DNA from: Thermogladius sp.
Lineage (GTDB): Archaea; Thermoproteota; Thermoprotei_A; Sulfolobales; Desulfurococcaceae
Reading direction: 5' to 3'
Assembly: GCA_009904025.1 (NCBI GenBank)
Contig: WYEE01000109.1
Location: forward strand, 1 to 32,091
Length of the DNA: 32,091 nt
Position 1 is the stretch's first letter. Every line of letters starts with the position of its first letter. This document shows positions 6,939 to 9,990 of the stretch, piece after piece. The position numbers and the translations under genes were made by a program. The notes beneath the pieces were generated by a model. The model was given only the letters and a program-made list of their open reading frames with translations, was not told where the DNA came from and did not search any database.

Positions 6939-7045
6939 CTACAGCTCTTCACCTCTCACAGGAACAGCATTGAAGCGGCGGTAACGCCAAACCTTATAAA
7001 CCTCTATGAAACTTGAAACAGTTGCGGCAGGCAATTTGCATGGGC
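6939..7045 (+). repeat. Copy A of a promoter/leader repeat shared with ~28389-28494
   Basis: CTACA-GCTCTTCACCTCTCACAGG-AACAGCATT...TAACGCCAAACCTTATAAACCTCTATGAAACTTGAAAC, nearly identical to copy B. Confidence 0.8.
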
Positions 7046-7519
7046 TTGAAGATCTACTCGCTAACCCGCGGGTCTCTGGTGGTTGAATACCTGGGTAGGG
7101 TGTTTAATGCGAGGTTCTTCCTATGCTCTAAGACAAGCCGTGACCTCGACAGCGAGTTGCAAGCACTAGGGTTGACGCCTGAGCTTCCAGTGGCGTTGAT
7201 CCCTGTTAAGCTCATCGAGAACAATCTACAGCTTATTCAAGGAGTAGTCCACTACTTTGTTAACAAAGAATTGCTAACCCGTATAAGACATGAAGGGCTA
7301 CTCCTAGCTATGTTGATCACGGGTTTCAAGCAACTAAAAGACCTGTTAAACTCCCTTAGAGAGGCATACAATGAGACAGACAAATACCTACTAGTATCGG
7401 CCACAGAAGTCTATAATAAACCGGTTAATTGCATTGACTATCCACTAGGTGATACAGACTTCTCGAGGAGTATTACAGGCAATGTAAAAAACGTCGCTGT
7501 TATACTAGACCTCCTATAG
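7040..7519 (+). CDS. Hypothetical protein, possibly KEOPS Cgi121-like
   Basis: In-frame ATG at 7040, ~45 nt after TATA-like CTTATAAACC; HEGLLLAMLITGFKQLKDLL loosely resembles the Cgi121 core. Confidence 0.4.
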   Translation: MGLKIYSLTRGSLVVEYLGRVFNARFFLCSKTSRDLDSELQALGLTPELPVALIPVKLIENNLQLIQGVVHYFVNKELLTRIRHEGLLLAMLITGFKQLKDLLNSLREAYNETDKYLLVSATEVYNKPVNCIDYPLGDTDFSRSITGNVKNVAVILDLL

Positions 7520-7522
7520 CTT

Positions 7523-7615
7523 CTACCACTCCTCCTCCCACTCCTCCTCTTCCCACTCTTCCTCCGGCTCTTCCTCCTCCCACTCTTCCTCCCATTCCTC
7601 TTCTAGCCACAACAT
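7523..7615 (-). CDS. Putative 30-aa Trp/Glu periodic microprotein MLWLEEEWEEEWEEEEPEEEWEEEEWEEEW
   Basis: Reverse complement of the CTCCTCCCACTC tract; SD-like AAGGTGG 5 nt upstream of ATG; TATA-like GCTTTACTTAAATATTC around 7655-7670. Confidence 0.6.
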   Translation of the reverse strand: MLWLEEEWEEEWEEEEPEEEWEEEEWEEEW

Positions 7616-7763
7616 GTCTTCCACCTTTCGTCTTAGAAGTATTTGGCAATCAAGAATATTTAAGTAAAGCGGTCAGATGTTATTATGTTTCACGAGACAT
7701 TCATCCGGTCTATGCATTTAATAAGGTTAGTTGTGTAAAGTATTGAGCCGTAGGGTGTGACGT

Positions 7764-8069
7764 TTGGTTAAGTTCTGCCCAAGATGCGGGGCTGCGATGT
7801 TTCCCTTGAAGAAGAAGGAGGGCGGAGAAGAGTACTATGTTTTAAAATGCCCTAGATGCGGTTACGAGGAGAAGGCTTCCAAGAAGGATTTAGAGGCATA
7901 CGGGTTGAAGTATGTAGTTGACTCTAGTAAGAGGACTATAACAGCTAAGGCGACAGAGGCCAGGGAGTCATCTCTCTCCCCAGACGAGAGGGAGATGCTC
8001 CAGGAGTACTACGAGGTTTTATTGGAGAGCATGAAAGAGGAGGAAAGCGAGGAGGAAGAATCAGACTAA
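7764..8069 (+). CDS. TFS/RpoM-like single N-terminal zinc-ribbon protein with acidic C-terminal tail
   Basis: KFCPRCGAAMFPLKKKEGGEEYYVLKCPRCGYEE; no C-terminal TFIIS ribbon; ends EEESEEEESD. Confidence 0.7.
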   Translation: MVKFCPRCGAAMFPLKKKEGGEEYYVLKCPRCGYEEKASKKDLEAYGLKYVVDSSKRTITAKATEARESSLSPDEREMLQEYYEVLLESMKEEESEEEESD

Positions 8070-8181: not shown

Positions 8182-9990
8182 TTGACTAGAGTAGCTGTGG
8201 TTGATAGGGCTTTCTGTAAACCAGACAAATGTTCACTAGAGTGTATAAGGTTCTGCCCTGTCAACAGGGGTAGGAAGGTTAAGGCTATTGAGCTAAGCGG
8301 GGACGGAAAACACGCTGTCATAAACGAGAACACGTGTATCGGCTGCGGTATATGCGTCAGGAAATGCCCGTTTAACGCGATCTCAATAGTCAACCTGCCT
8401 GACGAGCTGGAGAAATTCACTATCCACCGCTACGGCGAGAACATGTTTAAACTCTACGGCCTCCCACCGCTCACACTTGGAGGAATCCTGGGTGTTGTAG
8501 GTAGGAATGGGAGCGGTAAGACAACTACCGTTAAGATTCTCTCGGGGCAACTCAAGCCTAATCTGGGAAACTACGCGAACCCGCCGGACTGGGATAGAAT
8601 ACTTAGGGCGTTTAGGGGTACAGAGGTGAACGCCTACCTCCAGAAACTCGCTAACGGGAGCTTGAAGGCCGCTGTTAAACCACAATACATCGAGGCTGCG
8701 CGGAGGGTTTTAAAAGGGGGTGTCAGGGAGCTACTCGAGAAGGCTGATGAGAGAGGTTTGTTTAGGGAGGTTGCGGACAAGATTGGTATAACTGGCCTTA
8801 TGGGCAGAGAGGTTAAGGAGCTGAGCGGTGGGGAGTTGCAGAAACTGCTTGTCTCAGCTGTATTAATGAAAAACGCTGACGCGTATTTCTTCGACGAGCC
8901 CTTCTCATATCTTGATGTGAGGGAGAGAGTTAGAGTGGCATCAGCTATGAGAGAGTTCTTGAACCCCTCTAAAGTCTACGTTATGATAGTTGAACACGAC
9001 CTCATGATACTGGACTACGTGAGCGACTACATAGCCGTGTTATACGGTGAGCCAGGGGTTTACGGCATTGCAAGCAAGCCGTATGGTGTTAGGAGCGGTG
9101 TGAACTTCTACCTGGAGGGCTACCTGCCAGCGGAGAACATTAGGATCCGTAAAGAGCCTATTAAATTCAGGATTAGTGTAGCCGACAAGAGTAGACACCC
9201 TGAGGAATACCCTATTCTCAAGTGGGGTAGCCTATGGAAGACTTACCCAAGCAGCGGCTTTAAGCTCGCCGTCGAAGAAGGAGAGGTGCATCCCGGCGAG
9301 GTGCTCGGTATTCTAGGGCCGAACGGAATAGGGAAGTCAACATTCATAAGCATGCTCGCAAACGTGGTTAAACCAGATAAAGGGGAAGTGCTTGTGGGCA
9401 CAGATAAAATCAGCTATAAACCACAGGAGGTCTCGCCTTCGATTTTCGGGTCCGAGACTGTTAAAGATAATTTAGCAAGTGCTTCCAAAGATGCTGTCGA
9501 CCCTACTACCTGGCTCTACGATGAGTTAACTAGGAAACTAGGCTTGAACAAGCTACTTGATAGAAGCGTGAGAGAGCTTAGCGGCGGCGAGCTACAGAAG
9601 CTTGCGGTCGCAGTCACGTTGGCTAGAGACGCAGACGTGTACCTCTTAGATGAGCCTTCAGCGTACCTGGATGTCGAGGAGAGGATCAGCGTCGCGAGGC
9701 TGATAAGGAGGATAGTAGAGGAGAAGAGGAAAGCCGCTATCGTTGTCGAGCACGACCTTCTACTACAGAACTATGTTAGCGATAAAATAATGGTTTTCAC
9801 AGGCAGGCCTGGAGTAGAGGGTGTCGCTTTAAAGCCTACGGATATTCGAACAGGCTTCAACAATTTGCTAAAACAACTTGACATAACTGTTAGAAGAGAC
9901 CACGAATCGGGTAGGCCGAGGATAAATAAGCCGGGCTCATACCTTGACAGGGAGCAAAAGAGCAGGGGGGAATACTACCTCCCGGATTAA
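8182..9990 (+). CDS. abcE1: Ribosome recycling ATPase ABCE1 (Rli1)
   Basis: FeS domain CKPDKCSLECIRFCPVN...CIGCGICVRKCPFNAI plus two ABC cassettes (GRNGSGKTT, LSGGELQKL; GPNGIGKST, LSGGELQKL); TTG start just after TATA-like GGTTATAAAAC. Confidence 0.96.
   Translation: MTRVAVVDRAFCKPDKCSLECIRFCPVNRGRKVKAIELSGDGKHAVINENTCIGCGICVRKCPFNAISIVNLPDELEKFTIHRYGENMFKLYGLPPLTLGGILGVVGRNGSGKTTTVKILSGQLKPNLGNYANPPDWDRILRAFRGTEVNAYLQKLANGSLKAAVKPQYIEAARRVLKGGVRELLEKADERGLFREVADKIGITGLMGREVKELSGGELQKLLVSAVLMKNADAYFFDEPFSYLDVRERVRVASAMREFLNPSKVYVMIVEHDLMILDYVSDYIAVLYGEPGVYGIASKPYGVRSGVNFYLEGYLPAENIRIRKEPIKFRISVADKSRHPEEYPILKWGSLWKTYPSSGFKLAVEEGEVHPGEVLGILGPNGIGKSTFISMLANVVKPDKGEVLVGTDKISYKPQEVSPSIFGSETVKDNLASASKDAVDPTTWLYDELTRKLGLNKLLDRSVRELSGGELQKLAVAVTLARDADVYLLDEPSAYLDVEERISVARLIRRIVEEKRKAAIVVEHDLLLQNYVSDKIMVFTGRPGVEGVALKPTDIRTGFNNLLKQLDITVRRDHESGRPRINKPGSYLDREQKSRGEYYLPD

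Follow-up and report, generated by a model that had tools for sequence, protein, structure and literature searches.

A tryptophan- and glutamate-rich microprotein gene that recurrently adjoins ABCE1 in archaea

ABCE1 (RLI), the ribosome recycling ATPase, is essential and conserved from archaea to humans, and we know of no eIF3j-like accessory factor in archaea. DSS1/Sem1 is a very small, acidic protein of the disordered type (about 70 residues, with a C-terminal helix) that carries Trp/Phe motifs and binds several large complexes; to our knowledge, it has no link to ABCE1. The larger eIF3j/Hcr1 (about 258 residues, with a folded C-terminal half) has an acidic N-terminal tail with repeated Trp residues set in Asp/Glu, and one Trp of this tail occupies a hydrophobic pocket of eIF3b, to which the neighbouring acids contribute contacts (PMC2824034). 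A functional link to ABCE1 has also been described: according to PMC7196836, which cites Young and Guydosh 2019, eIF3j helps ABCE1 in recycling. In yeast, the Yae1-Lto1 adaptor serves Fe-S cluster insertion into Rli1 (ABCE1); Lto1 is ABCE1-specific, has a deca-GX3 motif, and recruits Rli1 through a single, conserved C-terminal Trp (PMC4523923). In bacteria, acid-rich nascent peptides destabilise ribosomes and act as leader switches, and an ABC-F protein acts on such peptides (PMC11282234, PMC8092293). MgtL and MgtQ are bacterial, cis-acting examples, each a short acidic ORF upstream of the gene that it regulates.

The microprotein gene in the window

The window analysed here is a stretch of 32,091 nt from Thermogladius sp. 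Direct reading of its minus strand gives an ORF of 30 residues, MLWLEEEWEEEWEEEEPEEEWEEEEWEEEW, at positions 7523-7615, with the ATG start at 7615-7613 and the TAG stop at 7525-7523. The product has Trp at residues 3, 8, 12, 21, 26 and 30, Pro at residue 17 and a net charge of about -20, and the ORF is single-copy in its own genome. A Shine-Dalgarno (SD)-like AAGGTGG (7621-7627, minus strand) ends 5 nt 5' of the ATG and is conserved in 4/4 genus members. Further upstream, the TATA-like box TTAAATAT (7656-7663, minus strand), a putative archaeal promoter of the gene, is unchanged in the other genus members and near-identical in another genus of Desulfurococcaceae. The stop codon is separated by 3 nt from the end of a convergent plus-strand ORF (7013-7519), which encodes 168 residues assigned to no family, has no Pfam match, and keeps its position beside the microprotein in 21 loci of Desulfurococcaceae. 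A sequence-only reading of this stretch had described the ORF, its SD-like and TATA-like elements and the 3-nt gap to the neighbour, and in these respects it was accurate.

The annotation as a gene rests on this direct reading, on homologues that differ almost purely at synonymous sites and on archaeal-wide relatives. The nearest species (Thermogladius sp.) encodes an identical microprotein, with 3 synonymous and 0 nonsynonymous differences. A comparison of synonymous with nonsynonymous divergence, suggested as a check by the sequence-only reading, gave 370 synonymous vs 7 nonsynonymous pairwise codon differences for within-genus pairs from seven genera of Desulfurococcaceae; the pairs share ancestry, so the counts are not independent, but their direction is unambiguous. 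None of the 7 nonsynonymous differences hit a Trp codon. GAR codons mutating without selection are expected to undergo mostly nonsynonymous change. An SD-like 4-mer was found in 144 of 196 family members vs ~20% by chance at random positions, an enrichment that is somewhat inflated because the start codons were picked partly by SD. Since the coding DNA is an imperfect 27-nt tandem repeat, a low-complexity artefact needed to be excluded; that this is an untranslated ORF within a purine-rich tandem repeat, as the repeat itself and the restricted codon set might suggest, can practically be dismissed in view of the strong synonymous bias, the conserved SD and promoter elements, and a phylum-wide recurrence in which the reversed pattern has 0 matches. 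The Trp/Glu ORF is almost certainly a real gene, and its conservation at the same locus in relatives, together with the codon differences, bears out the earlier proposal of a real acidic microprotein.

Set against the refuting condition that the sequence-only reading had named, loss of frame or of Trp spacing in relatives, the outcome is mixed: relatives conserve the reading frame and the Trp-in-Glu character, not the exact placement of Trp. The strict 5/4 Trp periodicity, with Pro in one Trp slot, that had been described for the window is indeed present there, but two further species of the genus lack it (MLWLEEEWEEWEEEEEEWEEEEWEEEW, spacing 5,3,7,5,4), and it was ruled out as a functional feature on this ground. 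Among 196 distinct genes, the spacing is mostly 4 to 8 and WW pairs are frequent. The amphipathic geometry proposed by the same reading did not hold either: on an alpha-helix, the Trp residues give a mean resultant of 0.33, equal to random, and share no common face, which rules out alpha-helical amphipathicity. A shared face would require about 4.5 residues per turn, and with Trp spacing that differs between species such a geometry is no conserved design. AlphaFold2 returned a single helix with a pLDDT of 92; however, pLDDT varies from 61 to 92 over the five models, and structure prediction commonly renders Glu-rich chains as helices, so this result adds little and was not used as evidence. 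We read the microprotein as a multivalent set of Trp-in-acid linear motifs.

Distribution and the ABCE1 neighbourhood

Relatives were sought with a degenerate pattern of two Trp-acid blocks with a Trp-stop end, taking microproteins of 20-60 aa that end in [DE]EW-stop. The strict form matched 81/216 genomes of the window's order, and matches were found in 137/399 genomes of the phylum Thermoproteota, in 57/95 genomes of the Thermococcus phylum (Thermococci), and in 1/149 genomes of the Nanopusillus phylum, the last being the query's own genome. Read backwards, the pattern gave 0 matches in each search (order, phylum, Thermococcus phylum and Nanopusillus phylum). A scan of genomes from 85,462 species returned at least 119 matching stretches; among the matches listed, all were titled archaeal, and the groups represented were Desulfurococcales, Sulfolobales, Ignisphaera, Pyrodictium, Thermofilum, Bathyarchaeota, Methanomethylicota, Nezhaarchaeota, Geothermarchaeota, Thermococcus and Nanopusillus. 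Similar ORFs occur in Desulfurococcaceae relatives, other genera included, and most of them occupy the same locus (for example MIWFEEEWWEEEEEEEWEEEEEEWWEEEEEW and MVVYFEEEWWEEEEEEWEEEEEWWEEEEEW). The 196 distinct genes consist of 58% Glu, 15% Trp, 6% Asp and 1.1% Gly, and most members are 20-55 aa long; Thermococcus forms carry an extra basic start (MQPPKKKKKVEEF...). Genomes that we take to be S. acidocaldarius DSM 639, S. tokodaii and P. aerophilum were among those surveyed, and the family labels Sulfolobaceae, Thermoproteaceae and Acidilobaceae used here are likewise our presumed assignments.

A search of Pfam, NCBIfam and the PDB gave no microprotein match above the curated cut-off or with E < 0.001, composition-biased queries such as this one scoring poorly, and a profile built from a 28-member alignment returned nothing, an uninformative outcome since it missed known positives as well. 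We found no publication describing a Trp/Glu microprotein family in the limited literature searched. A gene so small and of such low complexity can persist across archaeal phyla and yet escape ORF cut-offs and profile searches. Acidilobaceae-like and Nitrosopumilaceae-like genomes yielded no microprotein and keep ABCE1; such absences are weak claims, as the pattern passes over diverged forms and the family profile does not recover even known positives.

Several atypical members were noted. In addition to an ordinary short copy, one genome encodes two longer proteins (125 and 117 codons, stop to stop) in which a Cys-containing region is joined to a microprotein-like Trp/Glu tail. The Nanopusillus copy, the sole DPANN copy found, lies in a gene row with an aIF1A-like protein (labelled by eye) immediately downstream, and may stem from a host. 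Bathyarchaeota also have a second type, which starts MSKRKTPPKEEEE...; none of its five loci is near ABCE1, and most adjoin a conserved gene whose product begins MVFYIAYKAS. The basic PPK start of this second type is reminiscent of the Thermococcus form. Some ABCE1-unlinked copies may represent a different Trp/Glu protein that is alike by composition.

In the window, ABCE1 (8182-9990, plus strand; Pfam ABC_tran x2, Fer4_RLI and Fer4) is divergent from the microprotein, with a zinc-ribbon gene between them. Protein clustering around 116 loci revealed a single dominant neighbour, ABCE1, at over 80 loci, and a direct search placed it in the same block in 81/116. Of these 81 loci, 67 have ABCE1 downstream of the microprotein and co-oriented with it, 11 show the arrangement of the window (divergent, the zinc-ribbon gene lying in between), and 3 have ABCE1 upstream in the same orientation. 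Among 30 further loci, 27 have ABCE1 downstream and co-oriented, at a distance of mostly 110-180 nt. Both genes were mapped in 38 genomes, and in 20 of these (10 families) they lie within 510 nt on one strand. In at least ten families whose neighbours otherwise differ, ABCE1 adjoins the microprotein, usually on the same strand at 40-500 nt downstream; the lineage-variable neighbours include S17e, thermosome, FBPase, asparaginase-like and THUMP-like genes (labels of unscanned proteins assigned by eye). A Trp ending is built into the pattern, and only a survey that started from ABCE1 rather than from the peptide, with no Trp ending required, is free of this bias. In 8 genomes it recovered diverged forms not matched by the pattern, at 41-454 nt upstream of ABCE1, including MFEEDWDEDWEEDEEWEEEDLEEEDLEDDWEEDEF and VLVFEEDWEEEFDEFEEEEDWEEEEFEEEEW in Sulfolobaceae. 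In the genome presumed to be S. acidocaldarius DSM 639, the ORF begins the stretch before ABCE1 at a distance of about 49 nt upstream. The microprotein lies away from ABCE1 in Thermococcus, Thermoproteaceae, Thermofilaceae-like and some Bathyarchaeota genomes; genomes with an unlinked copy or none all keep ABCE1, so that ABCE1 can work without the microprotein, which counts against a partnership of the two. What is new here is the identification of ABCE1 as the constant neighbour, one gene beyond the nearest gene that was first considered. Gene order argues strongly for a link between the two, and sequence comparison shows that the microprotein ORF codes for protein, is under strong purifying selection, occurs broadly in archaea and has a genetic linkage to ABCE1.

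Possible roles beside ABCE1

A functional tie of the microprotein to ABCE1 or to ribosome recycling is somewhat more likely than not, and the microprotein is probably an overlooked helper or regulator of recycling. We propose, with a probability of roughly 0.45, that it is a trans-acting, multivalent linear-motif partner of ABCE1, or of ABCE1 on the small subunit, that works in the manner of the eIF3j tail. A typical microprotein, a chain of Trp in Glu/Asp that normally ends -EEW, would insert Trp side chains into hydrophobic pockets, its Glu runs would pair with basic surfaces, and it would thereby tune the binding of ABCE1 to, or its release from, the small ribosomal subunit. This mode is modelled on the Trp-centred acidic N-terminal tail of eIF3j/Hcr1 with its eukaryotic partners, and we hold its structural details more loosely than the partnership itself. 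Trans action, ABCE1 as the direct partner and the binding mode are what we infer. Put more tentatively, the microprotein might be a dedicated ABCE1 cofactor common to Thermoproteota and Thermococci that acts in trans as a minimal counterpart of the eIF3j acidic tail and controls ribosome recycling. A conserved 20-50 aa peptide beside ABCE1 would offer a minimal handle on the coupling of recycling to re-initiation and would also bear on the origin of the eukaryotic acidic-tail logic.

The likeness to eIF3j is one of motif. Archaeal members share its Trp-in-acid motif; unlike eIF3j, the archaeal protein is the motif alone, the window's copy having only 30 aa, no counterpart of the C-terminal domain and no Pfam match. 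Alignments of four archaeal members to the tail of human eIF3j, whose sequence was confirmed against PDB chains, were near shuffle level (p = 0.035 to 0.79). Because the scores barely exceed those of shuffles, common descent with eIF3j or DSS1 is not demonstrated, and the microprotein does not qualify as a member of the eIF3j family, the similarity being limited to composition. The recently found Sulfolobales ribosomal proteins aS33 and aS34 were set aside as candidates, since models show the two as ordered proteins of the ribosome and zinc binding has been reported for aS34.

The microprotein could also be a general acidic chaperone, a nucleic-acid mimic or a DSS1/Sem1-like hub that shields basic ribosomal proteins or RNA-binding surfaces, in which case the ABCE1 linkage would reflect a mere neighbourhood of translation genes. 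Its charge of about -20 over 30 residues would suit such a role, DSS1 (sequence confirmed) has a similar Trp/acid composition, and some copies lie by other translation genes, as in Nanopusillus. However, the recurrent neighbour is ABCE1 rather than random translation genes, and the similarity to DSS1 is no better than that of shuffles; most archaeal members, at 20-55 aa, are also shorter than DSS1 with its C-terminal helix. We consider this explanation unlikely.

Gene placement bears on whether the microprotein acts in trans or in cis. In Desulfurococcaceae its gene is divergent from ABCE1 or several kb away, and in Thermoproteaceae and Thermococcus it is located elsewhere. In one Sulfolobaceae genus, 5/6 species hold a conserved copy at another conserved site, and the members checked have no copy upstream of ABCE1. 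As the microprotein is conserved where it has moved away from ABCE1, it probably acts in trans. A cis-acting leader peptide, in which translation of the Glu runs would destabilise or pause ribosomes and so control ABCE1 expression as a feedback sensor like MgtL/MgtQ, is attractive in that most lineages have the ORF just upstream of ABCE1 on the same strand and acid-rich nascent peptides have such effects in bacteria. It is nevertheless a doubtful general explanation. Divergent, distant or unlinked copies are conserved equally; in Bathyarchaeota the microprotein gene has a TATA element of its own with a strong GGAGGTGA, and between it and ABCE1 lie T-rich DNA and a further TATA-like element; and the Trp positions are conserved, for which a Glu-run effect has no need. 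The MgtL type lies in the 5' leader of its target gene, an arrangement compatible with many other lineages but not with the window's family and others, where the gene is divergent or unlinked. A leader role may nonetheless apply in some lineages.

Less probable still is an Fe-S maturation adaptor for ABCE1, which carries two Fe-S clusters; here the C-terminal Trp would dock on the machinery that delivers such clusters, as the Trp of Lto1 does for yeast Rli1. Nearly all members end in acids followed by Trp-COOH, and this includes most forms from the ABCE1-anchored survey; the pattern searches required the terminal Trp and are no evidence on this point. The conserved C-terminal Trp is common to Lto1 and the archaeal family, but two anchored forms end in F or E, and the eukaryotic C-terminal Trp signal is reported to be absent from archaeal client homologues (PMC10623007). 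Such an adaptor would also leave the Trp repeat along the chain unexplained, and, in contrast to Lto1, the archaeal peptide has several Trp residues and neither a deca-GX3 motif nor any Gly repeat.

The zinc-ribbon neighbour

The gene between the microprotein and ABCE1 in the window (7764-8069, plus strand), divergent from the former, encodes 101 residues consisting of an RPB9-type N-terminal zinc ribbon, the only domain found by Pfam (Zn_ribbon_RPB9, 25.2 bits, at the cut-off), and an acidic tail. Its position is kept in relatives, and it is probably co-transcribed with ABCE1. The sequence-only reading had looked to this adjacent protein, as a TFS-like factor, or to RNA polymerase for a partner of the microprotein. 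In favour of this, the window has the zinc-ribbon gene next to the peptide, and in 22/116 loci the gene lies near it, sometimes between peptide and ABCE1, but Sulfolobaceae, Ignisphaera-type and most Bathyarchaeota loci have the peptide abutting ABCE1 without it. A partnership with the zinc-ribbon protein or RNA polymerase is very improbable, and the TFS/RNA polymerase idea was given up because the gene is adjacent only sometimes: it is missing between peptide and ABCE1 in most lineages, whereas ABCE1 recurs. The placement of a zinc-ribbon gene between the two is seen in several lineages, and most relatives, the window's genome included, hold a second, more distant zinc-ribbon copy elsewhere.
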